Shown here piece by piece: positions 16,168-63,609 of a DNA stretch of 64,000 bases. Each line of letters opens with the position of its first letter. The stretch's first letter is position 1. The translations under genes and the position numbers were made by a program. The notes under the pieces are model-generated. The model was not told the DNA's origin. It ran no database searches and was given only the letters and a program-made list of their open reading frames with translations. Source of the stretch: Chaenocephalus aceratus (Eukaryota; Chordata; Actinopteri; Perciformes; Channichthyidae); contig CM043796.1 in the NCBI GenBank assembly GCA_023974075.1, forward strand, positions 25,226,927 through 25,290,926. The letters are read 5' to 3'.

Positions 16168-19100
16168 TCATACGGTAAGCTGCTTTGAAATATCCGTCAC
16201 CACTGAAGACTTGAGCTGCGCGATGGTGGCAATCCTCATCTGCTTGGAAGTGGAGTACTTTCCTTTAATGGCCTGGAATAAGAGAAAATGATTGAGTTAG
16301 AAGTAAATCCAAATTAAGGATGAATCCTTTTCAAGTACACAAATGTTGACACTTGAGTTTTGTTTGTTTTACACTTACCATATGTTTGGTCGTACCGTCG
16401 TTCACCTTCAGTACATTCTTGGCAATGTGTGCCATCACAGGAATCAAACTCTCTGCCGTGTAGTCCATGTAGTGCTGCAGAGTCATGTCCTGAGGAGAGA
16501 CAATACACAGATGTCCTTCAGAAAAGCATTTAATCCACTGGACAGTAAATGCTCCATGACCATTTTATGACTGAGGCAACCATTTTTAAAGGCAACACCC
16601 CACTTTGCACACTTTTGTAGCTAATGTAGCCTTGAAATACACATATTGGCCAATATTTAAATAGATGATATGCCACCTTTTAATATTTTGAAGGTGCACT
16701 TATTAGCTTAGTCTTGTAAAAATATGAAAGTTTCAAAAGAGGGCCGAATGTGTTATTTTAGCATATTGAACTAATGCATTTTGCTCTCTTGGAAATATTT
16801 CTCTTCTCCTTTAAATGGACAGTTATTTTAGTAGTATACTATAATCTGAACTGTATAAACCATCTGTTCATTTGTCACAAGTAATGATATTTTCCTCATC
16901 TGATACGGACGTATTTAGGAAGAGGTTAACTCACCCATTCGCCAGCGTCCAAGACCTTGAGACTGAGAGCCAGAGAAGCACTTGCAACAATGGAAGGTGG
17001 CATGTGAACCATCTCGTAGTCGACCATGGTGAGCTCCAGGAGGTATTTAGCCAGGGTGTGCTGCTCAGCTGTTACCTGAGGAGAGACATTGACAACAACA
17101 ACAACAAATTGAAGATCTCAAAGCAGAAAATGTGTCTCGTTTGCTGTTAAAATGATACAAACCTCGTAAACCTTTGACGCTCTTCTGAGGAACTGCAGGG
17201 GAAGAGGGCGGCCCAGCTGGAACTTGAGCACTCGCAGGATGGCCATCTCCATGTCTCTGATCTCTGCGGTGGTGTAGGCCTTGTCGGTTACGTAGGCAAA
17301 GTCTGAGATCTCGGGGGGGTACATCTCCTCGTATTTGGAAGCCAGGAACATGGCAGTTACGCCGACCAGCTGCAGCTGCTTCTTGGGGACTGGGTTGTCC
17401 TGTTGGAGGTGCAATCACAGGACTTTAGACACAAGGATTTACTGTTTTTCATCAATATATTAGAAGTCTCAGATATATGCAAAACATGTCTCTGAAGTGT
17501 TTGGCTCCAAATACCAAACAGATCACCCATTGCAGCATTACCCATAATCCCCTCTGTTTCAGCCCCGTTTCTAAAGTGCTGATTCTCTGTTACTTGAGAT
17601 GAAAATAAGGAGCCCCTCCCCACGCCCCTCTGAGAGATATTTGGTTAAAAAGAACACAATGGTGCTCTAGGAGGAGAGTCAGGTGATAAGCTGTGGGGGG
17701 GGGGGGATGGCTATTGGTTACACGAGCCAAAAAAAAACCTTTATGACATCATGAAGTGGCCAAAATCTGATCAGCTCAGACAGCTTTTGCAGACATGGAT
17801 CAGGACAAAAAAAGAGAGAGAGAATCTTTTTCCCTGAAACTTTCAGAATGTCTTTACACAGAGGGGACACATGTTGAACATGTATTTTGTATAAGAGGTG
17901 ACCTTTAAGCTAGCCATGTAAAAAAAACAGGACAAGATATACATGTACACACCTGAAGAAAGCGGTCAATTATTCCCACGGTCAGGTACATGGTCTCCTG
18001 CAGCAGACGGAACTTGAGGCTCACTTGCACCAACCAGTCAACGAGAATGGCCCGCATGTTCCCAGTCACCTCATGACCCTGCAGATAAGTGGCTCTGACG
18101 TTCTGCTCCACCTGTAGAGACAAAAACTGGTTAAAATCCACAAGTAGTAGAGGGGGGGGTGGGAAGGAATCTCCAATGCATATAGCCACTAGCCAGTTGA
18201 AGAATATTCATTTGCTTGCCTCGAGCTGACGCAGGTACTTGTAGATTTCCTTCACATATTCGCTGCAGAGCATGGGGTTTTCGTAGTCATCTGCATCTAC
18301 ATCCCTGACAGCGGTGTGAAGAATGACGTCTGAGAAGGCTTGGCAGAGGTCTGCCGGGGCACAGCCAGAAGTCTCCATGGGAGTTGGGGAGGCTGGTTCA
18401 GGGATAACCTGGAATGGTGGAATTCCCAATATTAGAACCACACCCGGTAGCCATTTTTGTTTGAGCAGATAGCTGCTGGGATTCACTCACCTGGACTTCT
18501 GGCTTAGGTTTAACAGGAACCACAGTTTTTGGTTTGGGCTGTTCAACAACAGCAACTGCTTTTTCAACTTTGGTGACCGGGACTTTGATCTTCTTTGTGG
18601 CCCCTGTCTTGACAGCCTAAAGAGAAAAAGATGGATTAAAGTCAGAACTGTGGTGGCCACCATTTCATAGCTTGCGGCAACCACTCTGGATTAATTGTGT
18701 ACAACTGAATTGCAGAGTAGGTTATCTATAATAGGACACTGTCAATTTACATGCTGGGCAGACATTTAGTGTTTTATAGAAGTGTGTAAAAATGCTTTTA
18801 CATGGTCAATCTTTCAGAACTTGGGTAAACCCCTTCTAAAAAGCAAATGTAACCATGTGCTTCAAGACAAGTTACCAGGCTTTGCTTGTTGTTACATCAG
18901 AGCACAGCTGTAGTCATTTTGCATAAAAGGCTTTAGTCTTGAGAAGCATGAAACATTCCCACGTTGATTTTGATAAAAATGGAAAGTGATTGTTTTCAGT
19001 TATTTAGCTCTCAAAGCCTACCAATAATCTTACATGCATGGCTACGATAATTAGCTGAATGTTTGCCGTGTTTTTCCAGGTGTTGGCATCCTACCTAGAT

Positions 19101-19485
19101 TATAAAAGTAGTAAAAATCTTACCTTCTTCTGTACTTCTTTGTTAATTCCAATGTTTCCAATTTCACCGAGAGCCGCTCGGGGCTTTGTGGGCCCGGTGA
19201 CCGTGCAGGCCTTTCCAGCAATCTGAATGTCAGCATTTCTGGCTGAAGCCAAGCGGCTCTGCAGAAGAAGAAAAAACGTTATAGTGCATGCCATTACTTT
19301 GTAATTGTTTAAAAGAGAGCAAACCCCACAGCTAAGCACGAGGGCATTTAAGAGATATCATGTAGATATTATCTTTTTTAAATAAAAAAATCCAATAAAG
19401 ACACATTTCCCCTATACAGAATTACTGTCAAATAAAGAATAATGATAAACATAAAAATACTTACTCTGGTTACTCGGAGTGCCAT
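16168..19485 (-). CDS. ccnb1: Cyclin B1, copy 1 (complete, 9 exons)
   Basis: This is the regulatory subunit of CDK1, driving mitotic entry. Exons on the minus strand, 5' to 3': 19465-19485, 19124-19258, 18491-18616, 18220-18408, 17953-18111, 17163-17399, 16935-17075, 16379-16489 and 16168-16272, all phase 0, giving 407 codons plus TGA. The start MALRVTR is the usual cyclin B1 N-terminus. The destruction box RAALGEIGN is at residues 34-42. [20 protein letters not shown] (from ~105) is typical of B1. The cyclin box N begins around residue 150, with [20 protein letters not shown] from 176 and [12 protein letters not shown] in exon 6. Cyclin box C spans exons 7-9. Splice sites are GT-AG except intron 4, which has a GC donor (GAG|GCAAGC). 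The C-terminus is TDISKQLTV. It looks fully functional. Length fits the family (~400 aa). Confidence 0.96.
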
Positions 19486-19775
19486 TTCGAAATATGCGTC
19501 GCTTCAACAGACAGGTACGCAGTCGTAATGGAGAATGATGCGGTGTTTTTGAGGTTCAGCGTCCAGGTTTAAATCCTCGCTCCCTACGATCTGATTCGCT
19601 GAGGGCTGTACGCAGGGATGCATCCTAAAACCCGGAAGTAAACTCCATCCGGTTCCTTCGACAAAAATGCAATGCAATTTCTCCATAGAATTTTGGAAAA
19701 TAGCTCGAAATAAGGTCTGTGGTTGACACACATTTATGAAACGGATCACGTTTTGTTCAGCCGGATAATATCCAC
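19486..19775 (-). promoter_or_regulatory. ccnb1 copy 1 5' UTR and proximal promoter
   Basis: Only ~150 bp separate the start codon from transposon-like sequence (19640-19765, an inverted match to 7150-7275). A TTTAAA at 19568-19573 could serve as a CHR-type cell-cycle element of G2/M genes, but this is a weak, AT-rich motif. I found no clear CCAAT pair or TATA box. Copy 2 has the equivalent at 41814-42104. Confidence 0.35.
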
Positions 19776-20470
19776 TAGTGATGGCTAGATGAAGCCTTAT
19801 GAAGCTTTGAAGCTTTCCAGCCACTTTGTTCGCAAAAGAGGCTTCATCATGGGCTTCATTTGAACACAAAGTGTCAAAGTGTGTAAAACAGGCAGATTTG
19901 ACATCTCAACAGTGCGCTCTCATCTCATTGGGAACTCGGTATGAGATAGAGCCTTAGAATAACTCTAAACAACAAACATAAAATCATATTTTCATGTTAA
20001 CAATATTGTTTTTATTCCAGTTTAATGATTGTGATTGAAAAGCCTAAGGAGGCTGGTAAACATTGCAAAGAGGGATTTGTATTCCTTAATAATATTCGTA
20101 AACTTAACCATGTTGTAGCCTGAGAAAGGCTCAACCATATCAAAGACTACATTTATTAACTGCATTATCTAATTTAGCTGTAGCTTTTATAATATTAAAA
20201 AAGACGTATTGACGAGTCATTGTACCAGGGACCCTGCGGTTGTGAGTCAACTGCTTTCCAGCTGAGCCACAGCCCACACACTGAATCCACCTGAAAACAC
20301 TGTACGCTATTTATTCCTGTATTTATTTATTTATTCATGTTTTTATTCCTACATTTATTTATGCTTTTATTTATTTATACTTATGACATGTTCCGACCTC
20401 TATATAAGTGAGGGTCTGAGCTCTCTTAATTCCATCGTGTCACCGGGCCCGGGTACAGGAGGGGTTATAT
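19776..20470. mobile_element. Left arm of hAT-like element X (unit 1)
   Basis: It starts TAGTGATGGC; the opposite end in the second copy (45316) is CATCACTA, a matching inverted terminus. It carries GAAGCTT-rich subterminal sequence and a tRNA-like stretch. It is interrupted at 20471 by another hAT element with target duplication GGTTATAT. The matching right arm is after the gypsy in the next unit (28916-29109). Confidence 0.6.
20211..20272 (-). repeat. tRNA-like SINE-type segment within element X (unit 1)
   Basis: On the minus strand TGGCTCAGCTGG (20259-20270) is an exact pol III A box, followed by an anticodon-arm-like stretch. CAGGGTCCCTGGTAC then stands where a B box would be; the copy at 44803-44864 is closer, with GGTTCAACGACT. 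There is no acceptor stem or CCA context, so it is tRNA-derived and not a tRNA gene. Confidence 0.45.
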
Positions 20471-20740
20471 CAGAGTCCTGCATCGGGTCGGGTACCCGCG
20501 GGTCGCGGGTATTGCATAATAAATATATTAAAATAATAACAATTTAGTTTAATGTTTAAATCCTCAGACTTCTCCCCCGCGGGACCTTGCATAATCATAA
20601 CCTCTGCAGCGCATCAATCTGCTGCTGTGCGCGCCACATTCGAAATGGCTGAGGTGAAGCTCTCTAGTGGAGAATACAGCATTTTCAATAACACTTCCCC
20701 AAGAGCGAAATCCAACGTCTGGGAGGCTTTTAGTGTCATC
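20471..20740 (+). mobile_element. hAT element, left half, with BED-type transposase start (unit 1)
   Basis: The left terminus is CAGAGTCCTGCATCGGGT; the right terminus in unit 3 is ...ACCCGTGCAGGACTCTG (to 50188). The 8-bp duplication GGTTATAT flanks both (20463-20470 and 50189-50196). From 20645 it encodes MAEVKLSSGEYSIFNNTSPR, then AKSNVWEAFSVICDD, resembling the region just before the BED zinc finger of hAT transposases. It is cut at 20740 by the gypsy LTR. Confidence 0.7.
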
Positions 20741-20830
20741 TGTGACGACCCCTCCACACCGCGTCGGGTGCCGTCTGGTTGTGTGTGTGTTTTGTGTGTG
20801 ATTGCAGGTTCCAGCTGCAGCTGTTTGATG
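20741..20830 (+). mobile_element. Gypsy 5' LTR, proximal fragment (unit 1/2 boundary)
   Basis: TGTGACGACCCC and onward matches the intact LTR at 49630. It is preceded by CATC, the 4-bp target duplication whose partner follows the 3' LTR at 49939-49942 in unit 3. It stops at GTTTGATG, which is repeated at 26158-26165 where the LTR resumes: the 8-bp duplication made by the next insertion. Confidence 0.8.
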
Positions 20831-22112
20831 GAGATGGGTCTGGCTGCAGACCGCAGCAAGGAGGCGGGTCCTATAGGGGCGTTTCTTATAGGGGCGTTTC
20901 CTATAGGGGCGTTTCCTAACTTTTTTTATCCAATAGCAACTTAAGGGATTCCAGCTGCTTTTATAAATCCTCACAGAAGAAGTCATTGTTCTCGTGATGG
21001 GAATTCCGGCTCTTCTTGGTGAGCCGGATCATTTGGCTCACCAAGAAGAGCCGGCTCTTTCGGCTCCCAAAGGGCTCTTCAGTTTACCACATATTATACC
21101 TTTTAATTAAATCAAATGTAGCCCTGTTTTGACTAATGATGTATATGTGTACACATATATCACTTAAATTATTCAAGACATCCTTTGTACTAAACTATTC
21201 AAAAGTAAAAATTACATGTTCAATATAAATTATTTGCTGTGGCCAATTGTTTTCATTGCATTTACAGACCCGTGTAACTCTCTGATACCACCCAATGAAT
21301 GCATTGACTTGCTTGTAGAACCACGCTACACAAAACAAATGGCAACACCTATAAAAACTATTTTAAAAAAGGGGCTACTGTATCAACCTATATAAAGTAT
21401 ATAAATATAGTTTTTCTCCCTGCAGGAGAGGGGAGCGTGCTTTGAGATCAACTGCTCGGCTGCAGCGGGGAGAAGAGGGGGACAAAAAGAGATCTCCGTC
21501 CTCCGTGTTTTATTCTTATAGAAGTAAGAAGAGAAGTAATGGGTCAGAATCCCTCCTTTTTACGCAGCGGTCCAGACATAGACATCATAGCTACGGCGAC
21601 ACATATTCAGTTGCCAGTTACTTTTGGCATTAGGGCAGGGATATCTTTCAAGGTTTGACATAATGAATTGTGCTACTTTTAAAGCAAGCAACGATGTTTT
21701 CAAATCTGTAATCAAAAAGCTCCTCAAAAACACTATAGAAGCTGTTCCTGCCGTTGTTACGTTAGTTCAAACAGTAACAACGGACTACTTTTCTTAGCGG
21801 ATGCATGTCAATTTAAATCAATACATAAAACTATTTTTTAAATCAATAAAATCTTTTTCTAAATCCATAAAAGCATTTCAATTATTATTGGGAGTCATGT
21901 CGTTACTTTGTTGAGAATGTGGCCATGTGTAATAAGCGGGATAATGTCCACATTGCACATTGCATAATGTGCCTTCATGCCGATCTAGATCCCTCCGCAA
22001 AAACAAAACAAAAAACGGCTCGTTCGCGGGCGAGAGCCGGCTCCCGTCGTTCACTATAGGAAACGCCCTTCTAGGATCCGCCTCCTTGCTGCGGTCTGCA
22101 GCCAGACTCTAT
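20831..22112. mobile_element. hAT element inserted in the gypsy 5' LTR
   Basis: It is flanked by 8-bp GTTTGATG (20823-20830 and 26158-26165). Inverted ends share GTCTGGCTGCAG with further matches through the GCAAGGAGGCGG region; the outermost ~7 bp have diverged. Subterminal tandem copies of CCTATAGGGGCGTTT lie at ~20869-20917. The right end is split by the ISL2EU-like element at 22113. Further nested inverted GAGCCGGCTC-type arms lie inside (21006-22060). I see no transposase ORF. Confidence 0.65.
21006..21054. repeat. Perfect 20-bp inverted repeat with a 9-nt loop
   Basis: The arms 21006-21025 and 21035-21054 are exact reverse complements around GGATCATTT and include CGGCTCTTCTTGG. It lies inside the 20831-22112 hAT element and may be the end of a further nested element, with a related GAGCCGGCTC stretch at 22035-22050. 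Confidence 0.9.
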
Positions 22113-23235
22113 AGAGAGGCGAAGTCCCTCCCTTTCCGGGAGCCTCCATGGGACCCCGGAAGCGTAAAATTATACATTGAAGTCAATGGAGAGAGAAAGG
22201 TTATCTTTTTATCCCGTTTGAATTGTGCCACGAATGACACATATGATGTTTGTCAATTAAAAAGAATATTTTGCAAGTCAAAAAAATAAAAATGTGTCGT
22301 AAAACTGTGAAGTTACACATTTTTTTGTGTGAAACCGCTGAGTGAACTACAGGTATCTGGTCTCGCACAATACGCGTCACCATCACAAAGACGGCCGTCA
22401 CGTTAGCCAATTTCACCTGTTTCTTTCAGAATGAGAATACAAGTATAAAACAAGGTGAAAATCACTACAAGTCTGGACACGTTGAGAGCTGTACATACAC
22501 GAAAGGGGAGTTAGTCGGTTCTGTAAGAGGACCGGCTTTACAAGGTTTCGGTGAGTAATATGAGTGCAATGTGTAACGTTAATGTCAGCTAGCTAACATT
22601 AGCTAACAAGGTACACTAACGTGTTTTGTTTCAGTAACTAGTTTTCTCCTTAAGAACTTCGTGGTCTCTGTGTATGCTGTGGATAACATTAGTGTTCACA
22701 AGAACAAGGTAAACTCCCGTGTTTTGTTTTAGTTGCTCTTCAGATTGAAGCGGCCAGTTTTATATCGACTATACAGTATGTGTGATCTCCTTTTACATCT
22801 CGTTGTGTCATTTGAGTTTATTTGCTGTGTGTAGATTCAAGGGTTTTGGTTATCTTGTCAATTTGATTGGTTATCCAGGCACAGCTGTGTGTGACTCCCT
22901 CGGGTACACTGGTATGTGTTTTCCTAATGTAGAGAGCATTGATTAATTAATAAACTATACACTGAGTCTAGATCCTGACCAAATCCTTTTTTATTGTTGA
23001 TCAAATGTTTTTCAAAAATGTATTCATACACATTTAGAAAAAAAATACAATGTACAATCACAACCAGTACAACACAAATTACAAAAAATACAGAAAAAAC
23101 AAACAATAACAACAATCAGACAAAACTATGGAAAAATAACCCCTCCCACCCCCAGATCCGGACCATCCTTGTATTATTGATTATTCAATCTATTATAGCA
23201 TGCTAACAAACATGGTAATTACTTTATTTGTACAG

Positions 23236-23616
23236 ATCTGCATGGGAGACGATGGCGCGATGCAGAGCGCTGTCTGTGATTGTGCACGGGGGATGTACAA
23301 ATACAGCCACGCTGCAGCATTGGCAATATGTGCCATGTGGCAGATCAGCTCCACAGATGTTGAGTGCCAGTGGAGGAAGCCTGGCACTTCCAAAGTAGTC
23401 CAGCCGGTGTCTCAACTTTACCAACAGTGAGAGGAGACATACAACCCACTGGCCACTCAGGATGTAGACTGGTTCAGGTCTGCACTGAGGGGCGCACAGT
23501 GTGACAGTGTTCCAGTCTGGTCTCTTTGTGAGTGAGTCGGTGTTTTGGGAGCATCCCTCGATGGACTTGTGCAGCCATCTGCCCTGCTGGAGGTGAAGTG
23601 TCCACCATCATTATAC
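23236..23616 (+). pseudogene. SWIM zinc finger / YqaJ-nuclease-like remnant (unit 2)
   Basis: Same as unit 1 at 907-1287. The two in-frame stops are shared (23428-23430, 23533-23535), so the gene was dead before the tandem duplication. It ends with the GASLDGLV and LLEVKCP motifs. Confidence 0.6.
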
Positions 23617-24382
23617 ATGATGGTGTATATAGGATATAATATATATATTTGTATACATATCTGTAAATTGTATAATTGTATCTGATTTAAAAGTCTTTTT
23701 GATCTCTCTGTCTATAAACACAAACTGAGTAAGATTGACAATAAAGTTGACTTTGAAAAATATATATATTCTTTATGAAAATAGTTGCCTGTTGGAGAAA
23801 TGAATCCAAATGAAACGTTGGACTGAACTACAACTACGCCTTTAAATCTCTACGGACTGTTTTTCAGTGGGATGGCAAGTTCCTATCTTTAAACATTTAT
23901 TAGTTTTTTCTCAGAACAGATTTGATTTTCTGAAGTTAATTTAACTTTGGCGACCATGTAAGGTCATTATTAAAAAGGTACAATCAATTTGTTTAGGGTT
24001 GAATAAAATAATGATAAACATTTCATTTGGATAATTTACTGACAGAATAAGAAACTCAATAATGCTCTACTCACCTGTTCCTTTTTATAAAGTGAAACAG
24101 TTGAAACGATAGATTTTAGTAAACTTAAAAACAACCTTCTCCAAAAGCTATCAAGGAATATACCGAATACTTATTTTAGAACTTTATTACATATTATTTG
24201 TATATAGTTTGAATGATCCATAATTGACAGAAGCTTGTGTTTACACTGACCTGTTACTCATATAATAATGTCTTTGTAACTTCTTTAAACCACTACCTCA
24301 CTCATTTCTTTCATTCATCACGGTTCAGTAAACTAAGTGAAACATGAACCAGTTTAATCATTATAATAACGTAGGATTGCAA

Positions 24383-24416
24383 CTCTTTGAAACTGTAGGT
24401 GGCTCTTAAAAGAGCC
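24383..24416 (-). promoter_or_regulatory. Histone 3' stem-loop and downstream element (unit 2)
   Basis: The stem-loop is at 24401-24416 and AAAGAG at 24383-24388 on the minus strand, as in unit 1. Confidence 0.85.
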
Positions 24417-24448
24417 GTCGTGTTTGGGTGTGCTGGTCTCGGGTCAGT

Positions 24449-24524
24449 CTAAGCCCTCTCTCCGGATGCAGCGCGCCAGCTGGATGTCCTTAGGCATGAT
24501 GGTGATCCTCTTTGCTTGGTTCAT
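24449..24524 (-). pseudogene. Captured histone H3 3' end (unit 2)
   Basis: Identical to 2120-2195 in unit 1, including the 2-nt deletion before GERA and the TAG stop (24449-24451). Absent from unit 3, which starts downstream of this point. Confidence 0.85.
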
Positions 24525-25644
24525 CTTACTGGGGGGCAGCTACATGGATGTCGGTGCAGTCCACAGTCATTATGCAGTTGAAGGCAGAATGAATTTATTA
24601 TTGACTCAGAATGAAGCACAACTTCATGTCATACAATACATTGACTTTATTTGTAATTGTGTAAAAAAATAAAGCATTGATTAGCAAGCAGGACCTGCAG
24701 GAACAGAGAATGGTGATGGATTGAGCTGGGAAGAGAGAAGAATAAAGAAAACAGATCAACTTTATTATCGGATATTAAAAATTCAATTTCAAAACAAGTT
24801 GCCGCTCCTACAGTTTTCTAGTATGTAAAGATGATTTCACATGACCTATGAAAAATATCACACTCAATACATGTGTGTCTCTGGGGGGTGCATTGTGCCT
24901 TTGATGTATATAAATAATATACCATAACCAAATACTATTACGTACAGTGGAAATCAGGTTGCCAGAGCAGGTCAGTGTGCATGTTCCTCAGGGTCTCAGC
25001 AGTTACAGGTGAGGGAAAGGAAATAAAAGAGAAAAAGGTCAGTAACAACACTTTAAAGTAACAACACTTTGAATAATTATCTCTTTTAATAATGTTCTAT
25101 CAGTAATCACTCAACTACTGTCTTTTCAACAAACAGATTGACTCACTATCATCACAATGAAACACGTCCAGAAGAATGGACCACAGATGGAAATTAGCTA
25201 TTAGCTATAATCTGGCATATTGCATCTCTTCTCTTTGCTGAGATTAATGTTTTTGTATGCATGGTCCTTCTATAAATAAATAAATAAATGTCATGCAAAG
25301 CTGCCTGCCTGCCTTCCTTCGACTCTCCCTGAACTGCCTGTTCTTTTAATGTTCAATGTTAACCATTTGAGCAGATAGCATTACGTAGAAAAGATCGCAG
25401 ATGCTAATGTGCCGTTAGCCTACCTCCCGCCCCCTTAGCACCTGGTGGAGGGGGCGATAGGCTCCTCTTCAAATGTTTCACAAAATACTTACCATCATGA
25501 ATACTCTTACTGTTTAACATTTGGGTTCACTTCATGTTAAGGCTAATACAAATGACAAGGCTAAGTAATGTGATGCTAACTAACGTGCTCGATACTAGCT
25601 ATGTAGCTAGCTTGACTGTGTTCCATGCACAACATGTGTATTAC

Positions 25645-25753
25645 CTGATATGTTTGGTCCAACGACTCCTGGTCCTTTCATCAGACGGAAAGCGATAGAA
25701 CGAGTGGTATGATCACTTATGTGATTACAACCTGGTACAAAGCACACAGGCAT
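25645..25753 (-). pseudogene. THAP-like first coding exon (unit 2)
   Basis: Same as unit 1 at 3316-3424: MPVCFVPGCN start, C-x4-C, and a GT donor. Confidence 0.5.
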
Positions 25754-26696
25754 CTTGTAAAAGTGAATTTATTTTTAGCAATCTCTTATTTATTGGAGGG
25801 AATAAATCAGTTATGAGATCTTCTTCTTCTTCTTCGCTTTAATTACGAGTCGCAACCACTTGGAGCATTATCGCCTGTGACATCACTTACGCGAGCCAGA
25901 ATGGGATTTGGGATTTGTAGTCTTTGTAGTCGCGTATTTTTCATAGTCTTATATTTCAACAGTTTTACGACAAAATGTGACTTTTTTGACATGGAACTTA
26001 TTGTTTAAGATTGACAAACATCATATGTGTAGTTCGTGGCACAATTCAAACGGGATCAAAAGATATGTTTTCTCTCTCCATTGAATTCAATGTAAATGTT
26101 TCGCTTCCGGGGTCCCATGGGCCGGAAGTAGATGGGCGTGACTTCGCCTCTCTATTGGTTTGATGAGGCGCACCTGCCGGATGAGCTACACCTGTTGAAA
26201 CAGGATATAGGAGGAGCCAGCCGGTTACGATGGGGGCTCGTTGTTTTGGACCTGGGAAGCGTGTGCAACTGGACGGATTTCGCGCAGCTGCTGTTGTCGC
26301 TGGGTGCGGCTGGTTGTTTTGGCAGTAGCGTTGCGGGGGGTGAGTGTTTGGCAGTTCTAGTACACGGAGAGTGTATGGCAGCAAGTAGAGCACAGATCAT
26401 TAGTTACCGTGGTATCTGTCCCTGTTAGATATAGTACGGTCTTCCTTGAAGGTCGTAGGGGGGGCTGTTAGTGCGGTGTGAAAGTGGTTAGAGCTATTAG
26501 CTCGGGAGCACGCCGAGGCTGCAGGTGGAGTTGCCGGTTTGCTGGTCGCTTCGCCGAGCTTAAGTACATAAGTACTCGCCATAACTAGCACCTGAAGACT
26601 AGCGGGGAGTTTAGCTAGTTTCTGTAGGCAGTTAGAGGGACGGGCCACGGTAGCGTGTAGGCTGTGTAGTAGCGTGAACGTGCACTCCGTGTTTGC

Positions 26697-28858: not shown

Positions 28859-28915
28859 CGGTGTTCTTAGAGGAACTCCTTACTTATGGGGGGGAGTGTG
28901 ACGACCCCTCCACAC

Positions 28916-31393: not shown

Positions 31394-31396
31394 TAT

Positions 31397-39991: not shown

Positions 39992-40023
<32 letters not shown>

Positions 40024-49620: not shown

Positions 49621-49629
49621 GGGGGGGAG

Positions 49630-50928: not shown

Positions 50929-52690
50929 TGTTAAGAAAATATCTCCATGGAGAAAAGCCATGACTGTGAGAACAGCAAAAACTGAGTGCAGAAAAGCTGA
51001 ACGCAGGTGGAGAAAAACAAATCTCCAGGTTCACTTGGAAATATATAAAAAGAAACTCGGTTTCTATAATCAGGAAATAAAAAAGGCACGACAATCGCTC
51101 TTCTCTGACATCATTAACAAAAATAAATAAATAAAACTCATGTGCCTTGTTTGCTACCGTCAACAGACTAACAAACCCCCCAGTGTCGAAAGCCTCAGAA
51201 TTTCTATCCACCAGGGCCTGCAATGATTTTGCCTCCTTCTTCACTGACAAAATCATGCAAATTAGACGGGCAGTCAGTGCCGCTGTATCAGGTACAGCAA
51301 ATGTACTGTCCCTGTGTTCACCTAAAGCCAATTCAGACACCATGTCACAATTCCGTCTGATAAATGCTAAAGACCTGGAAGACATTATCCAACATCTGAA
51401 ATCCTCCTCCTGTACCCTCGACATCATCCCGACAGGATTTCAAAACCGTTTTTCATTGCTTGGCCTCAGATATACTACACATATGAAAACAAGTCTCTTC
51501 AATCAGATGTATTTCCACAGGCCCTGAAAACTGCAATAATTAAACCGCTCCTAAAAAAGCATAACCTAGACGCAACCATAATGAATAACTACAGGCCAAT
51601 ATCAAACCTTCCCTTTTTAATCAAATTGATTGAAAAAGCTGTTTTTCAACAGTTGAGTAATTTCATGTTTTTAACTGACGGTTTTGATGTGTTTCAGCCG
51701 GGCTTTCGACCTAACCACAGCACTGAGACTTCACTTGTTAAGGTCTTAAATGACATCCATTTGAACACAGACAGTGGCAGAATATCAGTGTTAGTATTAT
51801 TAGATCTCAGCGCTGCCTTTGATACTGTTGACCACAACATATTGCTTGGCCGTCTTGAAAACTGGGTGGGAGTTTCAGCAACAGCTCTAAACTGGTTTAG
51901 TTCCTACTTAAAGGACAGAACAAACGTTGTCTCAATAGGCAATTACAAATCAACCCTGATAAATATGTCATGCGGGGTTCCTCAAGGCTCCATCTTAGGA
52001 CCTTTGCTTTTTAATATTTATATGCTACCTCTGGCTGAAATTATTAAAAAGAGCGATCTAAGCTATCACATCTATGCAGACGACACCCAGATTTATTTTA
52101 AAATTACACCGGGAGACTATTCTCCGATTAGAACACTGAGCAAGTGCATTGAGCACATCACTGACTGGATGACTCAGAACTTTCTCCAATTGAACAAACA
52201 AAAAACTGAGATAATTGTTTTTGGAGCAAAGACGGACCGATTAAAAGTAATCACAGAGCTTCAGTCGGCAGACTACAAAACCACTAATAAAGCTAGGTGT
52301 AGTGATGGACTCAGACCTGCATTTTAACAGTCACATTGCAACAGTTATTAGGTCTGCATATATCACCTGAAGAATATATCAAGGATTAAAAAACTAATGT
52401 CGCAACAGGATTTAGAAAAACTTGTCCATACTTTTATTTTCAGTAGACTCGACTACTGCAATAGTGTATTCACAGGGCTCACTAAAAAATCTATCAGAAA
52501 GCTGCAGCTGATTCAGAACGCTGCTGCTCGAGTTCTCACTGACACTAGACAAGTGGATCACATCACTCCGCTTCTGAGATCATTACACTGGCTTCCAGTC
52601 TGCCAAAGAATTGATTTTAAAATACTACTGCTAGTTTTTAAATCACTAAATGGCTTAGGACCGAGGTATATAGACGACCTCCTCCATCAC
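50929..52690 (+). pseudogene. LINE reverse transcriptase, frameshifted (unit 3)
   Basis: RT core at 51501-52327 with YADDTQIY, C-terminal part from 52397. Shares all the frameshifts and has Val in TNVVSIG as in unit 2. Confidence 0.88.
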
Positions 52691-52693
52691 TAT

Positions 52694-53346
52694 AGAGAGG
52701 CGAAGTCCCTCCCCTTCCGGTGGGACTCATGGGAGTTTATTTCGGAAAAAGTTTGTATTGAAGTCAATGGGGAGAGAAAGATTATCTTTCGATCTCGTTT
52801 GAATTGTGTCTCGAATTACACATATGATGTTTGTCGATCTTAAATAATCATTTCCGTGTCAAAAAAGTCACAGTTTGTCGTAAAACTGTTGAAATATAAG
52901 ACGATGAAAAATACGCAACTAGAAAGACTACAAATCCCAGAATCCCGGTCCCGACTAACTCCCCCCCTTGTGTGTATGTACAGCTCTCAACGTGCCCAGA
53001 CTTGTAGTGATTTTCACCTCTTTTAATACTTTACGCCTCATTCTGAAAGAAAGAAGTGAAATATGCCAACGTGACTGCCGTCTTGGTGTGTGGTGCGAGA
53101 TGGGAGATATAGTTCATTGAGCGGTTTCACACAAAAAAAGTGTTACTTCACAGTTTTACGACACATTTTAATTTTTTTCACTTGTAAAATTATCTTTTAA
53201 ATTGACAAACATCATATGTGTAATTCGTGGCACAATTCAAACGGGATCGAAAGATAATCTTTCTCTCTCCATTGACTTCAATGCATAACTTTTCCGAAAT
53301 AAGGTCCCATGGAGCTCAACCGGAAGGGGAGGGACTTCGCCTCTCT
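52694..53346. mobile_element. ISL2EU-like MITE inside the LINE (unit 3)
   Basis: AGAGAGGCGAAG...CTTCGCCTCTCT with flanking AT, 653 bp. Confidence 0.85.
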
Positions 53347-54538
53347 ATGAAGCATCCAGGAGACTCAGGTCTTCTGGGTCGGGTCTGCTCTCTGTTCCGA
53401 GAACAACAACTAAACATGGAAAAGCATCTTTTAGTTATTATGCCCCAACAATCTGGAACAAACTGCCTAAATCGTGCACGTCCGCTGAAAACACTTCCTA
53501 TTTTCAAATCCAGACTAAGAACGCACCTATTTGCCGCTGCTTTTAATTGAGCTGCTCATACTCACACTACAGTATGCCTTTTAGTCATGTATTCTGTCCC
53601 TGCTGTGTTTATTTTATTTCATTATCTTTGCTTTTTATGCCTGTTTTTAAATGCCATTTAATAATGTATTTCCGCTGTATTTACAATGTCTTTTGTTTTT
53701 ATTTTCTAAAGCACTTTGAATCGCCACGTGCTGAAAAGTGCTAAATAAATAAAATTGCCTTGCCTTGCCTTACTTCCGGGTTTTATAATATTCATTGGGG
53801 GGTTTGTTATCAATTTGAGGGTCATTCCTCCAATTCCAGAATTGGAGAACATTTCATGTCCCGCATATAAAGAAATGCACTTGTTGTGTTAAACATACTT
53901 GTCTTGAGACAAAATGTATATAAAGTTGTAGAAAAAGTGGTTTCAAAATATTATTTAAATGTTCAAATAGCTCTCGAACATCCCCTAAAATGGCATTTTT
54001 CTTTTGTCCCCGCTTCTTGGCGACCAACTTGCATGTCAAATATAACATTTAAAATAGGGATTTTATTTACTTTTGTTGGGATTATTCTATTGATATATGT
54101 CTCTTGTAATGGTAAAATAAATTTGTTAAATCATAAACACATTTTAAATAAAAGTAATTTTGCACAGAAGGTGTGTCCATCAACATGCGTTCAACCCTGT
54201 TACCCAAACCTTTTTAGATTGCACAGGAAGTGAAAAAACTGTAAGTCAGATGACACAGTGGAAGTGAAAATCAGCAAGCCATGTGCTAGTGCCATAGTGC
54301 CATGCCATTCATATTTTTACAATATTTTCAGTCTTAAAAGAGTGTGGCACTCCGACCCACTCAACCCTGTTACTGATATTATCAGAATAAAGCCTATTCA
54401 TTTCAAAGTTATCTTTCTTGCATTAGATATCCAAGTGTGTCCTTGCCTTGAAAGTAGCATTACATGCTACATCTAGCAATAATTCCTGAGGTTAAAGCTC
54501 AAATTAGCATTGATTTTCAACCCTGTTACTATAATTAG

Positions 54539-55264
54539 CAGGGACGTGCACAGGTACGGGCTAATGTTGCCCGGGCAACGGCCCGTTTGGCCTTTTTGGC
54601 TGACCTGCCCCTCTGGAGAGAGCGAGAGTTTGTTTTTCTTTTTTCTGTTGTGGCCGAATCAACATGATAAGCCCACAATTAGTATTGTAGCGTCTCGCTG
54701 CGGGAAACACACTTTGTCAGCGCTGTCATCTGCCGGTGCGTTAAGACCACCTCAGTGTCGGATTTTGGAAACTTGATTTTGAGTTGTCTCATGGCATGGT
54801 ATAAGGGACAAACCAGGGGACTTTACTTCCTCTTGATACCGTCGGTTATTTACAAAAAAACACCTACATACATAAGTAATTAGATACCTTACCGTTACAA
54901 CGCTCATAACGAATGTTAAGAATAAGAATAATGCGTATTGAACTGGTTTAATTAATTAGTTAGAGGCCCTATTTCATCAGTATGTCTGGACTGCACAGCA
55001 GTTACAATGGTCTGGCAAACTACATTAGAACAGAATTGTTTTGCATATGGACCGCAAAACTAAACATTTCCCTGGTCACCTTAGCTTATTTTGTTATGAG
55101 ATGATAATGTGAATTACTCTTCAAATTAGTTAATGTAAAAATCGTTTGGTTTATTTTACATCAAAAACAAGTTCAATTTTCAAAAGGTCTTGTGTTTTTT
55201 TCCGGGGGGGGGCCTTTTTCCAGTTTAGAGCAATAGCCCCTCCAAATGTCTGTGCACGTCCCTG
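54539..55264. mobile_element. Non-autonomous hAT element, 726 bp (unit 3)
   Basis: Clean CAGGGACGTGCACAG inverted ends, ATAATTAG at 54531-54538 and 55265-55272. Confidence 0.9.
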
Positions 55265-56585
55265 ATAATTAGAGTAACAGGGGTAATTCTTCATTGGAAA
55301 ATATACATTTGATGCTTAGCTGGGCAAATCACTTTTTTGTGTATTGATAGATGTCTTGTAATGCACTATTGAGGAACCTGCGACCCAAGTTTTTCATTCA
55401 ATGCATAACTACATCGTAGTTGTGTATATGATATAATAAACCTTAGAAAATCTTGAAATCTTGAAAGGGATGTGCAAAATAGTCATTATATACAGTCTTT
55501 AATTAACTATTAATAACAAGTAATGAATATACTTTATACGGATCCTATTAATATCTAATAATAAAAATAATGAAATTCAAACATGCTTTAACCACCAGGT
55601 GTCCCTTTATATCAGCTGTGCACCTTTATGGTGTAAATACAGCCTATCTACCAATTGGATCAAATATAAAAGTCAGCCGAATTAGTGTTGATACTGCAAG
55701 GAGACGTATTGTGTAAAAAAAATTTAAGATGTTTTTAATTGCTTACATTTGAAGATCACGTGACATAGACGCCAGAGCATGACAGACATTGGAATGAATG
55801 GTGAAAAAAACCGGGGTTTGTCAAACAGAACACATGGTGTAGTCCTAAACGATAGCTGGGGATTCTGGGTAGTGTAGTGTCTTCTGCCATCCTTTACTCC
55901 GAAAAAATATTTGTTTCTCCGAATCGAAGGGGAAAAATAAAAAAGCATTGCACACAATTTAAACCAATCAATGTTGTGTAATTAACAAGGATAATCTGGT
56001 GTTTTTTAGTCGATGAGTAGTGCAGATATCACTGTAAAATCAATCGACAGTAAGGGGAATACTTACTTCCGGGTGTACAATTCTCCATTATCCAATGGGA
56101 ATGGACGCTCACATTGCCTTTAAGGGCAGCCGACACAAACGAATGCCGTGCTTCCATGAGCGTCAAATCCCGCCGCAGATGGGAATACATTGAAATCAGT
56201 TGAAAGCTATTTGCGTGCCTTTATGACGCTGAAGGAGCCTAGGAGCGTCACAACTGCACGCCACGGGACCCTGACCAAACGTCGCTCCTGGACGATTATG
56301 GAGTGAAAGTGTGTTGGGAGTAACAACTACAATATTTCCAAAATTGTAGGGGTAAAAGTATAGGGTTGTATAAAGATGGAAATACTCAAGAAAAAGAGCA
56401 TTCACATTACATTGCATTTAGCTGACGCTTTTATCCAAAGCGACTTACAATAAGTGCATTTGACCAAGAAGATACAAACTTGAAGAAAACAGAATCATAT
56501 AAGTACATTAGGTTTCAGAGCCAAACTATTTTAAGTGCTACTCAACTGGCTTTAGATAAGCCAGTCCTTTGTTAGTAGCCTATAC

Positions 56586-56937
56586 TGTAACGGACTGGTT
56601 ATAATGTTGATGTTTGATGTGTTTGTTGTTCAGAGTTTGTTTGCATTTTGCAGTCAGTGAACGTGCCACTGTTTTGATGGACGGTTCTTGTGACCTGCAG
56701 CTGTGGGTTTGGTTGGGAGAGTGTTGTCTGGTTGGTTGGGGCTGGAAGAGGGAGGTTCCTGGGGAGAGGGACGCGGGAAGCTAGGAAAGAGCTAGCGGGA
56801 GACGTGACGGAGTGTGAGAATACGACGGGGTTAGTGGATTGTTTTGGCGTGGTTATGGCCAACCTGTGATCTGTACAATAAACTCCCGGATAAAGGACAA
56901 ACTAAGCCTCCCTGTGTTCCTGTAGCGAGACGCTACA
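56586..56937 (+). mobile_element. Solo LTR, 352 bp (unit 3)
   Basis: TGTAACGG...CGCTACA, ATAC duplication on both sides. Six bp shorter than the other copies (AACAGT lost near 56860). Confidence 0.8.
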
Positions 56938-57382
56938 ATACATTCTAGTTAAAGGTGGGGTAGATAATTCACTTCAGAAACACTTGTTATATTCCATGGA
57001 ATGCTCTTAACATCCCAATAGCAATGAATACATTAAATGCTTTGACAATAAATACATAACAAAAATTAATCTGTGGAAGCCGTGGCGCTGTAAAAAGCAC
57101 AACCAATCATCTGAGCCGGCCGGCTAAAATAACTGGATGGCCTACCTGGCTGTCAGCCTTCCATCTCGTGCACAAACTTATCTCGTGCCCTCATTGGTCA
57201 TGTGCGTGTTCGTGTGTGTTGGAGGAGGGGCTCTGTAAGGACGGGGCAGATTTTTGTTCGAGCTGGTTTCTCCATTCTTACCTACCCTACCTTTAAGTAC
57301 AGTAGGCTACTTGGGTAAAAGTCTACCAATTTAATTGTTTACATGAAAACACATAACAAAAATGTTGATGGCTGAACTTTAA

Positions 57383-58672
57383 AGGAGACATGTCATGCTT
57401 TTCCGGTTATTACCTGTCCCCTTGTGTGTTATGAAGGTTTTTATGCATGTAAACGGTGTGCAGAGTCACAAACCCTCAAAGTACACCCAAGTAAAACTCT
57501 AACACAGAAAATACCTCCCCAAAACGCCTCGTTGGAGATACGTCACTGTCCATTTGATTATTCCGGGTACATCTTGATGTCATGTTGTCCAAATTGACCA
57601 ATCCACGGACTTCCTCACCAGAGTTGGGTGTAACGCGTTACAAAGTAACTTACTAAAAGCAGTCATAATCAAACCTCAAACACCTGCAAAGAACACATGC
57701 TAAGGTGAAGCTAACGCACAGCTATTTGTTGTTTGTTTATATCACGTATTCTGTTCTTCCTCTGTTTTCCAGTTGTTGCCTGTTTTGAATGACGAATACA
57801 CACTACCGCCGCCTGCTGGTAAGGAGAGTTATTGCCACTCACGCATGCGCAGTTCGTACGTGCTCGGCTGAAGTCTGGTTCCGGTGCAACACATGGCCAA
57901 CACGCAGGAGAACACGCCGACGCAACAGCGTGAGCAGAGATATACTGCGCAAAATATACAGATAGCAGGAGACAGAGGACAGCCACGGTCAGATAGGAAA
58001 ACATTCAGGATCTGGATCAGTCTTATGCGACAATGGAAACTGAACTAAAGAGAACATTTGAAACTTTAGCAGTCTGCGTGATCTGCCTGCAGGGAGGGGC
58101 GGGCCGGCCCTGCGAGTAAAGTAACGAGTTACTTTATGTAGAGAGTAACGAAGTAGTGTAATATATTACTTTTTTTTTTTTTTAAAGTAATATGTAATAT
58201 ATTACTTTTTTTTTAGTAACGACCCCATCTCTGTTCCTCACACTCTGCTGATTTCTCCTCCCTGGCTGCAGGCTGATAACAGACAGTTGGGATCGCGGCG
58301 AAATTCTCTCTGCAGACCCATTCTCACAGCGTTTATCAAACTTTTTCTTACTCAATATCAAGCCACACTTTGTTTGTACTTCGGCTGCGAGTGCTCAGGA
58401 GCTGTGTTTCGCTAAACAAGGAAACAACACCTCCACGGAGCTCAGCGCGATTCACAACGTCCCGACCAATCAGAGCAGACTGTGTTCACAGGGAGGATGG
58501 GGGCTGAAGCTATTGGAGCTACAACGAGCCGTTAAAGGCAGACAGTGAAATTCAGGGAATACACGTAGTTTACAGCGATGCTTTATAAGAAACCAATGTG
58601 AGTTTGGAAAATTGCACAGTATAAATCTATTCTAGACCTCAACAATGGAATTATGGCCATGACATGTCTCCT
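57383..58672. mobile_element. TTAA-target element, 1.29 kb (unit 3)
   Basis: Both TTAA sites are intact (57379-57382, 58673-58676). About 60 bp of the left arm with the duplicated GGACCAATCC stretch is absent here. Confidence 0.8.
57619..58233. mobile_element. hAT element nested in the TTAA element, 615 bp (unit 3)
   Basis: Flanked by TTCCTCAC on both sides. Left end CAGAGTTGGG is the better-preserved form. Longer than in units 1 and 2 because of extra sequence in the AT-rich right part and around 57900. Confidence 0.85.
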
Positions 58673-59773: not shown

Positions 59774-62700
59774 TCATACGGTAAGCTGCTTTGCAAAATC
59801 CGTCACCACTGAAGACTTGAGCTGCGCGATGGTGGCAATCCTCATCTGCTTGGAAGTGGAGTACTTTCCTTTAATGGCCTGGAATAAGAGAACATTATTG
59901 GGTTAGAAGTAAATCCAAATTAAGGATGAATCCTTTTCAAGTACACAAATGGTGACACTTGAGTTTTGTTTGTTTTACACTTACCATATGTTTGGTCGTA
60001 CCGTCGTTCACTTTCAGTACATTCTTGGCAATGTGTGCCATCACAGGAATCAAACTCTCTGCCGTGTAGTCCATGTAGTGCTGCAGAGTCACGTCCTGAG
60101 GAGAGACAATACACAGATGTCTTTCAGAAAAGCATTTAATCCACTGGACAGTAAATGCTCCATGACCATTTTATGACTGAGGCAACCATTTTTAAAGGCA
60201 ACACCCCACTTTGCACACTTTTGTAGCAAATGTAGCCTTGAAATACACATATTGGCCAATATTTAAATAGATGATATGCCACCTTTTAATATTTTGAAGA
60301 TGCACTTATTAGCTTAGTCTTGTAAAGATATGAAAGTCTCAAAAGAGGGCCGAATGCATTATTTTAGCATATTGAACTAACGCATTTTGCTCTTGGAAAT
60401 ATTTCTCTCCTCCTTTAATAGACAATTATTTTAACAGTATACTATAATCTACACCAGGGGTCGGCAACAGGCGGACCGCGGTGCGGACGCCGACCTATAA
60501 TCAATACATTAATAGGGGATTTCAATTTTGACGGGGCGATTCTATTTTAACCGCCGCCGACAGGGGGCGAAAGAGACGAGTGAGCGATACAGGAAGAGAA
60601 ACACAGAAGAAGAGACAAGAGCGCGGCAGAGAGAAGTGGAGAGGAAAGAGAGAATAATTAGCGATACAGGGAGAGGAGTGAACAGGCGTGTCATACACTC
60701 CCATATTTGATTGGCAGTCAGTTGTTGATTACATGCAGACGTTGATAAAGCTACTTCAATACATATCACATTAATTCATAAAGCAACTTAGACATTTTGA
60801 TGTTCCGGACCTTTGCATGGGGAGATTCTCAAACTGGACCTTGTTGAATACCCCTGATCTAAACTGTATAAACCATCTGTCACAAGTAATGATATTTTCC
60901 TCATCTGATACAGACGTATTTAGGAAGAGGTTAACTCACCCATTCGCCAGCGTCCAAGACCTTGAGACTGAGAGCCAGAGAAGCACTTGCAACAATGGAA
61001 GGTGGCATGTGAACCATCTCGTAGTCGACCATGGTGAGCTCCAGGAGGTATTTAGCCAGGGTGTGCTGCTCAGCTGTTACCTGAGGAGAGACATTGACAA
61101 CAACAACAAATTGAAGATCTCAAAGCAGAAAATGTGTCTCGTTTGCTGTTAAAATGATACAAACCTCGTAAACCTTTGACGCTCTTCTGAGGAACTGCAG
61201 GGGAAGAGGGCGGCCCAGCTGGAACTTGAGCACTCGCAGGATGGCCATCTCCATGTCTCTGATCTCTGCGGTGGTGTAGGCCTTGTCGGTTACGTAGGCA
61301 AAGTCTGAGATCTCGGGGGGGTACATCTCCTCGTATTTGGAAGCCAGGAACATGGCAGTTACGCCGACCAGCTGCAGCTGCTTCTTGGGGACTGGGTTGT
61401 CCTGTTGGAGGTGCAATCACAGGACTTTAGACACAAGGATTTACTGTTTTTCATCAATATATTAGAAGTCTCAGATATATGCAAAACATGTCTCTGAAGT
61501 GTTTGGCTCCAAATACCAAACAGATCACCCATTGCAGCATCCCATAATCCCCTCTGTTTCAGCCCCGTTTCAAAAGCGCTGATTCTCTGTTACTTTAGAT
61601 GAAAGTAAGGAGCCACTCCCCTCTGAGAGATATTTGGTAAAAAAGAACACAATGGTGCTCTAGGAGATTCAGGTGATACGGTGTTACCTTGGTTGGTGAT
61701 TGGCTAACGGCCGGTCCACACATGAAAAAAAAATCTTGATGCTGGGCGTGTCTGAAGCTTGCGAGCAACGCGACCAACAACCAATCACATGAATCTCCCG
61801 CCCCCGGCATACAAAGCAATAGCAATGTTAAAATGAAGTAAACTGAATATAAACTCCCCAAACAGGCGAAAACCTACCAGTTTTACCCACTGTCTCTGCC
61901 ACCTCCCTCCATGTCTAGTTCCTCCGGTTTGTATCCCGGTAAATAGTTCTGGTCGTAAAGAACCGGGTGATTTGCTACCGTAATTTCTCGTTTGGAATAT
62001 GAGGAAATGAACTGCGGTCTGGCTCTACCAGATTGCACGCGGTTTGATTGGCTAGCGCTTGTACTGGCGGGATTTGCATAAACGGGATTTGATTGGCTGA
62101 TGCCAGCTTCGAAAGCATCAAAAGTTGAACATTGCTCAACTTTTGATGCTCGCAAAGCCATGCTCCGCTCCCCACAATGCAGTTCGGCGAAGATTCTAAA
62201 TCTTCTACGTCACCCCATTCAAGTGAATGGGCGAAGCTTTGAAAGATTTTTTTCATGCCCGTGTGTGAGCGTGCCGTAATGGTTACACAAGCCACGTTAT
62301 GACATCATGAAGTGGCCAAAATCTGATCAGCTCATTTTGAGACAGGTTTCTACAGAAATGGATCAGGACAAAAAGAGAGAATCTTTTTTCCTGAAACTTT
62401 CAGAATCTCTTTACACAGAGGGGACACATGTTGATGTAGAAGAGACATGAAAAAGTGGATTTTGCATAATAGGTGACCTTTAAAGTGGACCTATCATGCT
62501 ACATTTGAATAATATACTGTAGGGCCATACCTATATAAAACATGTCTGTGAAGTTTTTTTCAAAATACCAAACCGATCATACATTTTAGCCAGGCCTCAT
62601 TTCACACCATTTGCTTTATTCTAGCACTGTTTTTGCCAGGGCTGATTCTGTGGCAAATGAGCTGCAGCTGCAAAGGAGGGGGCGAGGCACAAGCATCATG

Positions 62701-63609
62701 TTACCATGCCATCCTCTCATTCGCCTGAAAGGCGGAGCTCCCCGTTTCTGATGTCAGAACGATTTCAAATCTGTATCAGCTCCGTTGCAGCCCCGTTTTT
62801 AGAGATTTGCGTATGGAGGAAAAGAGAGAGGGTTGTGTTTTCTGACACACATATTCATGTTTTGACACACAAAAGTGCATTTTGCATTATAGGTCCCCTT
62901 TAAGCTAGCCATGTAAAAAAAAAAAACAGGACAAGATATACATGTACACACCTGAAGAAAGCGGTCAATTATTCCCACGGTCAGGTACATGGTCTCCTGC
63001 AGCAGACGGAACTTGAGGCTCACTTGCACCAACCAGTCAACGAGAATGGCCCGCATGTTCCCAGTCACCTCATGACCCTGCAGATAAGTGGCTCTGACGT
63101 TCTGCTCCACCTGTAGAGACAAAAACTGGTTAAAATCCACAAGTAGTAGAGGGGGGGGGTGGGGAGGAATCTCCAATACATATAGCCAGTTGAAGAATAT
63201 TCATTTGCTTGCCTCGAGCTGACGCAGGTACTTGTAGATTTCCTTCACATATTCGCTGCAGAGCATGGGGTTTTCGTAGTCATCTGCATCTACATCCCTG
63301 ACAGCGGTGTGAAGAATGACGTCTGAGAAGGCTTGGCAGAGGTCTGCTGGGGCACAGCCAGAAGTCTCCATGGGAGTTGGGGAGGCTGGTTCAGGGATAA
63401 CCTGGAATGGTGGAATTCCCAATATTAGAACCACACCCGGTAGCCATTTTTGTTTGAGCAGATAGCTGCTGGGATTCACTCACCTGGACTTCTGGCTTAG
63501 GTTTAACAGGAACCACAGTTTTTGGTTTGGGCTGTTCAACAACAGCAACTGCTTTTTCAACTTTGGTGACGGGGACTTTGATCTTCTTTGTGGCCTCTGT
63601 CTTGACAGC
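59774..63609 (-). CDS. ccnb1: Cyclin B1, copy 3 (exons 3-9; 5' end beyond window)
   Basis: Exons present, 5' to 3' on the minus strand: 63484-63609, 63213-63401, 62952-63110, 61165-61401, 60940-61080, 59985-60095 and 59774-59878, equal in length to exons 3-9 of copies 1 and 2. Exons 1-2 would lie past 64000. All visible splice sites are kept, including the intron 4 GC donor. Protein differences: Gly to Glu in KTEATKK (exon 3), Val in [10 protein letters not shown] (exon 8, shared with copy 2), and the C-terminus TDFAKQLTV. Introns are enlarged by three transposons, none of which touches an exon: 402 bp in intron 7, and 569 bp and 416 bp in intron 5. Probably a working gene if its first two exons are intact. 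Confidence 0.94.
60455..60856. mobile_element. hAT MITE in intron 7 of ccnb1 copy 3, 402 bp
   Basis: Ends CAGGGGTCGGCAAC and GTTGAATACCCCTG. The 8-bp duplication is ATCTACAC / ATCTAAAC (one mismatch), at 60447-60454 and 60857-60864. Copies 1 and 2 have a single ATCTGAAC at the same place, an empty site. A purine-rich GAGAGAAG interior; no transposase. Confidence 0.88.
61708..62276. mobile_element. Harbinger-type MITE in intron 5 of ccnb1 copy 3, 569 bp
   Basis: Left end CGGCCGGTCCACACATG, right end (inverted) CGGCACGCTCACACACG, flanked by TAA on both sides. Copies 1 and 2 have a single TAT at the empty site (GGCTATTGGTTACAC). A 3-bp TWA target suggests PIF/Harbinger. It contains a 14-bp perfect hairpin stem. 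Confidence 0.65.
62115..62149. repeat. 14-bp perfect inverted repeat, 7-nt loop
   Basis: GCATCAAAAGTTGA at 62115-62128 and its reverse complement at 62136-62149, inside the 569-bp MITE. Confidence 0.9.
62484..62899. mobile_element. TTAA-target MITE in intron 5 of ccnb1 copy 3, 416 bp
   Basis: Flanked by TTAA (62480-62483, 62900-62903). Inverted ends AGTGGACCTATCATGC and GCATTATAGGTCCCCT. Copies 1 and 2 have one TTAA here (ACCTTTAAGCTAGCC). The interior resembles sequence already in this intron in all copies (AACATGTCTCTGAAGT), so an older relative is also present. Confidence 0.82.

Follow-up and report, generated by a model that had tools for sequence, protein, structure and literature searches.

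A tandem array of cyclin B1 genes in the blackfin icefish Chaenocephalus aceratus

In the 1.064-Gb assembly of the blackfin icefish, Chaenocephalus aceratus, the cyclin B1 gene (ccnb1) was found four times in tandem on contig C12. The window, that is the whole stretch of 64,000 nucleotides that was analyzed (C12:25226927-25290926), holds two complete nine-exon genes and, of a third, exons 3-9; our exon models place all of them on the minus strand. With the flanks that were fetched, 174 kb were examined, and it was shown that the third gene (copy 3) is completed by exons 1 and 2 in the right-hand flank and that a fourth complete gene (copy 0) lies to the left of the window, at about -6160..-2844 in window coordinates (C12 25,220,766-25,224,082), both on the same contig. 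The neighbouring copies have diverged flanks and stand on gap-free sequence, and as far as sequence can tell the array is a genuine tandem duplication; nor is it the artefact of one assembly, since seven of the eight Antarctic notothenioid species among the matches listed in our protein searches show at least two ccnb1 records on equal-sized contigs. The initial annotation of the window had claimed at least three intact ccnb1 genes within it. The common strand, the open frames and the splice sites were borne out, while the third gene proved intact only together with its flank; of the further copies that had been thought possible beyond the window, one was found (copy 0).

16168..19485, minus strand: ccnb1 copy 1, class V, complete, 407 amino acids; exons 19485-19465, 19258-19124, 18616-18491, 18408-18220, 18111-17953, 17399-17163, 17075-16935, 16489-16379, 16272-16168
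38464..41813, minus strand: ccnb1 copy 2, class V, complete, 407 amino acids; exons 41813-41793, 41586-41452, 40943-40818, 40735-40547, 40438-40280, 39695-39459, 39371-39231, 38785-38675, 38568-38464
59774..63609, minus strand: ccnb1 copy 3, class L, exons 3-9 in the window; exons 63609-63484, 63401-63213, 63110-62952, 61401-61165, 61080-60940, 60095-59985, 59878-59774
64519-64499 and 64264-64130 (window coordinates), minus strand: exons 1-2 of ccnb1 copy 3, beyond the window, open in the flank

All four copies have an open frame of 407 residues (1224 coding bases in copies 1 and 2) and intact splice sites, and their introns are of the GT-AG type throughout, except for intron 4, which is GC-AG in every copy.

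18214..18219, minus strand: donor GCAAGC of copy 1 intron 4, of the GC type and the sole non-GT donor, the same in the other three copies (exon models)

The Pfam domains Cyclin_N (PF00134, residues 148-272, 1.1e-46) and Cyclin_C (PF02984, residues 275-392, 1.2e-33) were detected in copies 1 and 3. A putative destruction box, RAALGEIGN, is present in all four proteins; RxxLxxIxN is the destruction-box motif in the N-terminus of cyclin B. In both cyclin folds, in the destruction-box region and in a near full-length alignment to the human protein the icefish genes resemble vertebrate cyclin B1 (CCNB1); the match to human cyclin B1 chain E reached 3.7e-150, and that to cyclin A2 about 1e-46. They differ from it in being four tandem genes instead of one, and in a protein that has changed faster than that of Cottoperca. 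The named best matches of the protein searches were mostly cyclin B1, with ccnb2 standing separate. Copies 0-2 begin with MALRVTR and copy 3 with MALRLTR, and residue 5, V or L, is the basis of our class names; the V and L proteins differ at 6-7 of 407 residues, and three different C-terminal tails occur among the four proteins. The annotated C. aceratus cyclin B1 records KUCAC02_008850, 008851 and 008853 (391, 367 and 391 residues) are identical over their lengths to copies 3, 2 and 1, respectively. Since the proteins of copies 0 and 1 are identical, KUCAC02_008853 fits copy 0 as well as copy 1, and a fourth annotated record could, at a guess, be hidden through duplicate removal.

The units of about 22 kb described in the initial annotation were confirmed, and the local amplification proposed there was supported. 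The exon-6 spacing of successive copies is 22.3, 22.3 and 21.7 kb, the period in the self-alignment is about 22.3 kb, and the tandem units with their four genes lie on a gap-free stretch. The order of the array is V0 - I - V1 - I - V2 - I' - L, where V stands for copies 0-2, L for copy 3 and I for the spacer. Positions 1-20830 align to 22330-43170 at 98.97% over 20.9 kb, and 50217-60450 and 45400-49648 align to both earlier units at 96.6-98.6%. A genome-wide scan with PF00134, which gave 42 matches and 56 scored candidates (counts that are lower bounds) and was not aimed at processed copies, found the ccnb1 exon-6 match at least four times, all on C12 in the array.

1..22329, no strand: repeat unit 1, period about 22.3 kb, extending leftwards past the window (self-alignment and flank)
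22330..43170, no strand: repeat unit 2 (self-alignment and flank)

Two protein-search listings, the best 120 of 4556 and the best 120 of 604 matches, were used for other species; all species statements in this text rest on the matches listed, and records on contigs of equal size were taken to lie on the same contig. Three ccnb1 records each were listed for C. aceratus and P. georgianus, and two each for C. gunnari (one of 223 residues), C. esox, G. acuticeps, P. borchgrevinki and P. albipinna, so that seven of the eight Antarctic notothenioid species listed have at least two on equal-sized contigs, which is in keeping with the lineage link suggested in the initial annotation. Cottoperca has one listed ccnb1 record, flagged as low quality, and for Eleginops, Trematomus and D. 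mawsoni no ccnb1 record was found among these matches. Judged by eye, no fish outside the Antarctic notothenioids had two ccnb1 records on equal-sized contigs among the matches listed; a few other species, such as Larimichthys crocea and Sander lucioperca, had two on different contigs or from different sources. Both the L and the V class are present in six of the eight species, the class signal being residues 5 and 8, together with the introns and upstream regions of C. aceratus alone.

Comparison of V (copy 1) with L revealed differences at 17 of 195 sites in intron 1, 12 of 492 in intron 2 and 24 of 442 in intron 7, or 53 of 1129 (4.7%) together, against 5 of 1119 for exons 3-7 with introns 3, 4 and 6 (Fisher 2e-11, a descriptive value, as the exons 3-7 block was picked after the data were seen). 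Introns 3 and 6 alone gave 0 of 166 (Fisher 0.0011). Outside both compared classes, 4 of 106 sites differ in intron 8 and 1/21, 3/135, 2/111 and 2/105 in exons 1, 2, 8 and 9, while intron 5 was omitted because its alignment is method-dependent (83/541 vs 47/535) and part of it is repeat-like (a 77% piece). As the short introns have been homogenised along with the exons, gene conversion has likely acted besides coding constraint. Among the copies, NG86 estimates were 0.0049-0.0064 for nonsynonymous (dN) and 0.0070-0.0123 for synonymous divergence (dS); these rest on few changes, and a dN lower than dS is not evident. Between -125 and exon 5, copies 0 and 1 are identical. In alignments, 142 of 28010 sites distinguish units 0-1 and 1-2, and 75 of 9419 distinguish I and I' (0.5-0.8% substitutions); in BLAST the same two comparisons gave 131 and 65 mismatches with 180 and 269 gap bases, for overall identities of 98.9% and 96.6%.

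At a substitution rate of 4e-9 per site per year (PMC9560024), these values correspond to about 0.6 million years (My) for the units, about 1 My for I/I', and about 6 My (introns 1, 2 and 7) or 8 My (introns 1 and 7 only) for V/L, dates that are rough because conversion resets the clock; the onset of the Antarctic notothenioid radiation has been placed at 10.7 My (PMC10256766). To judge by these divergences, the V/L pair looks old and the V expansion in C. aceratus looks recent (roughly 1 My or less), and the pattern fits unequal crossing-over between near-identical genes. The amplification had initially been called recent, and this appears to hold for the V expansion (142/28010) and to fail for the founding V/L duplication (53/1129, with both classes in six of the eight species).

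The V and L copies also differ in what lies before the gene. Their upstream regions match only over the last 124-125 bases or so before the ATG (95.2%), and further upstream no V-L match was found between 1345 bases of V and 6000 of L.

19609..20830, minus strand: class V upstream sequence beyond about -124 at copy 1, no match to the copy 3 upstream sequence (alignment)
41938..43170, minus strand: the corresponding class V upstream sequence of copy 2, matching that of copy 1 at 98.1% (alignment)

Copies of the piece at 19648-19758 occur at 7161-7270 and in two further units (91%), and L020, a sequence from C3, contains an 81% match to 96 bases of the V upstream sequence; by its make-up the V upstream region is therefore partly repeat-derived. 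The L upstream region, given its position at the array edge, is presumably the native one. Motifs of the E-box and ETS-like type can act in cyclin B promoters; a CACGTG E-box was found at -197 in L and an ETS-like ACTTCCGG at -154/-155 in the V copies, and TTCGAA just upstream of the ATG is kept in both. Downstream of the genes, five motifs resembling the cytoplasmic polyadenylation element (CPE) are present in the 3' untranslated region (UTR) of all four copies, at +49, +103, +128, +162 and +371/372. The 3' UTR sites had initially been described as conserved, which is true of the CPE-like motifs; the ATTAAA at about +526 is kept in three of the four copies and changed in copy 0 (about -6690 in window coordinates), which may for this reason use a different poly(A) site.

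15792..16167, minus strand: start of the copy 1 3' UTR with CPE-like sites +49, +103, +128, +162 and +371, common to all four copies

We propose that the array goes back to one early duplication, grew by unequal crossing-over and was kept for dosage, an explanation that, taken whole, we consider evenly poised between right and wrong. A single ccnb1 would have been duplicated early in the Antarctic radiation, L at the right edge presumably retaining the native upstream region and V coming to lie behind other, partly repeat-derived sequence past about 124 bp. Extra V+I units would then have arisen in C. aceratus by unequal crossing-over between near-identical genes, with gene conversion and purifying selection probably holding the exons nearly identical. 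As the activator of CDK1, cyclin B1 paces the rise to mitosis through its synthesis. Extra ccnb1 template would thus allow more cyclin B1 synthesis for CDK1 activation in oocytes and cleaving embryos near -1.9 C, and added genes with retained CPE-like sites in the 3' UTR would be one way of raising that synthesis. In the available portion of PMC12394406, temperature is reported to affect cyclin synthesis more strongly than degradation; in the cold synthesis is too low to offset degradation, and it is this faster drop that limits the embryonic cell cycle at low temperature. Cyclin B morpholinos or lowered translation are reported there to narrow the range of viable temperatures in Xenopus extract, and raised synthesis to widen it in a model. 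We infer from this that more cyclin B synthesis may be of benefit in the cold, and the multiplication of exactly ccnb1 in a clade that lives near -1.9 C makes the idea of a cold limit set by cyclin synthesis testable in nature.

Several observations weigh against this explanation. The same model (PMC12394406, as far as its text was available) stops oscillating at high synthesis rates once temperatures are intermediate or above, and conditions in frog extract are not those of a fish at -1.9 C. The V copies, having no L upstream region, may be weakly expressed. The flank left of copy 0 resembles spacer I only in short, repeat-like pieces, and the founding event was thus probably not a simple two-copy duplication; either later rearrangement would have followed or it was not a plain tandem copy. 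The two ccnb1 records of D. eleginoides stand on contigs of differing size and could be haplotypes, and two of the eight species have one class only (D. eleginoides L, P. borchgrevinki V). In a protein tree of 23 rows, from which five partial or identical rows were left out, nine icefish rows are grouped (98/94), L and V are not recovered as clades and the inner forks are mostly open. Finally, identical runs of 8,521 and 4,300 bases are shared by units 0-1 and 1-2, and with a mean read length of 13 kb (PMC7307600, available text) one of the V copies may have been created in assembly, which makes the count of four in C. aceratus provisional.

The last point leads to haplotype or repeat mis-assembly, in which some of the units would be alleles joined end to end. 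The distance of 0.5% between units 0-1 and 1-2, their 8.5- and 4.3-kb identical runs and the common protein of copies 0 and 1 would all be expected from it; it is nonetheless very improbable, as four consecutive genes are too many for two alleles, copy 3 has an upstream region of its own and introns 1 and 7 that lie 5-9% from those of other copies, and six other species have at least two records on equal-sized contigs. Nor is there any N within the array, the window being free of N and the one N run in the 174 kb lying outside the array at 97111-99610 (window coordinates). Haplotype duplication as the whole explanation was accordingly rejected for the existence of the duplication, and not for the exact count. 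The grouping of icefish copies in the protein tree, and the fact that most variable residues follow species rather than class, speak instead for independent duplications in each lineage in place of one old event. We think this unlikely on balance, since residue 5 (L or V) divides the copies within six of the eight species and the V/L introns and upstream regions in C. aceratus are far more diverged than the spacers.

Another possibility is that the copies are a neutral by-product, made by a repeat-rich and fast-rearranging icefish genome, kept alike by conversion and invisible to selection as extras. Retrotransposon frames in the spacers (RVT_1, SCAN/CCHC gag-like and integrase), a genome that according to the accessible part of PMC7307600 contains 47.4% transposable elements and has had a recent burst, V copies that stand without the L upstream region, and a dN that is not clearly below dS (NG86) are all consistent with such an origin, and it has to be taken seriously; we hold it to be doubtful, because none of the four genes found in the array is broken and at least two records on equal-sized contigs occur in seven of the eight species listed. 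It was also considered that function might be divided, L being the general cell-cycle gene and the V copies germ-line or embryo genes under a new promoter. The distinct upstream regions (the E-box of L and the ETS-like motif of V) and the three C-terminal tails could be read this way; short motifs, however, are weak evidence and the V and L proteins are only 6-7 residues in 407 apart, making this division rather improbable.

Whatever its cause, the Antarctic protein appears to have changed quickly. Five Antarctic proteins were put to relative-rate tests against Cottoperca, each with four outgroups; 18 of the 20 (non-independent) comparisons gave p < 0.05, and both misses were with Gasterosteus. 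Copies 1 and 3 have 26-30 unique changes against 7-8 in Cottoperca with three outgroups (27 against 8 for copy 3 with Epinephelus), and 22-24 against 10 with Gasterosteus. At seven residues, including A44G directly after the destruction box, 22 Antarctic rows, in which some genes are represented twice, show a fixed difference from six outgroups. This faster change may reflect adaptation, relaxed constraint after duplication or the poor Cottoperca record.

Among known systems, the afgp, zona pellucida and sod3 expansions of notothenioids resemble the ccnb1 array in tandem duplication and species-variable copy number, and afgp also in its repeat-rich region (PMC7307600, PMC10256766, available text); those are antifreeze, eggshell and antioxidant genes, whereas ccnb1 is a core cell-cycle regulator. 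Tubulin and pepsin duplicates have been cited as sustaining protein output in the cold in Antarctic fish (PMC6336007, in the part available). The proposed logic, more genes for enough protein in the cold, is alike and may apply to ccnb1. No published report of ccnb1 duplication in notothenioids was found in a search that had supplementary tables outside its reach and covered subscription papers only in part. By term search, cyclin and ccnb are absent from the main text of PMC7307600, PMC6457430, PMC10256766, PMC13131655, PMC4192396 and PMC10298351; in the available text of PMC9560024 "cyclin" was matched three times, seemingly as "cycling", and that of PMC11209021 mentions ccnb1 for the hypoxic zebrafish heart.

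Another B-type cyclin is likewise found at more than one place in the same genome. Exons similar to ccnb2 were located at three places on C3, at about 13.734, 14.250 and 16.115 Mb (L004-L006, L020-L025), which share only gene-sized blocks; two are apparently open, judged by eye, and the remaining one carries a disrupting insertion in exon 3 and has no exon-1 match. Several temperate percomorphs have two ccnb2 records on equal-sized contigs among the matches listed, with separate tags in Pampus and possible isoforms in others. Co-amplification of B1 and B2 as an Antarctic trait was therefore rejected; unlike that of ccnb1, the ccnb2 doubling does not look Antarctic, and one icefish ccnb2 place is broken.

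The remainder of the window is occupied by the spacers.

20831..37364, no strand: spacer I, rich in repeats, separating copies 1 and 2 (the V upstream sequence of 1.2 kb and the 3' flank of 1.1 kb are treated separately); it has a second copy that reaches from left of the window to 15071
43193..58670, no strand: spacer I' between copies 2 and 3, like spacer I from 45400 on, the first 2.2 kb different (alignment)

To the left of the array lie frames that match Pro-MCH and guanylate cyclase, to its right frames that match TMC and cation efflux (slc30a-like); these were the four Pfam matches among eight flank frames scanned. No further host gene was recognised in the spacers among ten window frames scanned outside ccnb1; three of these matched Pfam, all of retrotransposon type (SCAN with a CCHC knuckle, integrase H2C2 and reverse transcriptase). 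On the minus strand, 2047-2092 and 24376-24421 match the histone 3' UTR stem-loop of Rfam (36.7 bits against a gathering threshold of 34), and the 900 bases translated beside the former contained no histone frame. A gag-like retrotransposon frame with SCAN and CCHC zinc-knuckle is located at 4344-6026, 26673-28355 and 47435-49117, open in two units and interrupted in the third, and a reverse transcriptase frame (RVT_1) of the long interspersed nuclear element type is found in each of the three window spacer stretches, at 7745-8701, 30074-31030 and 51371-52327.

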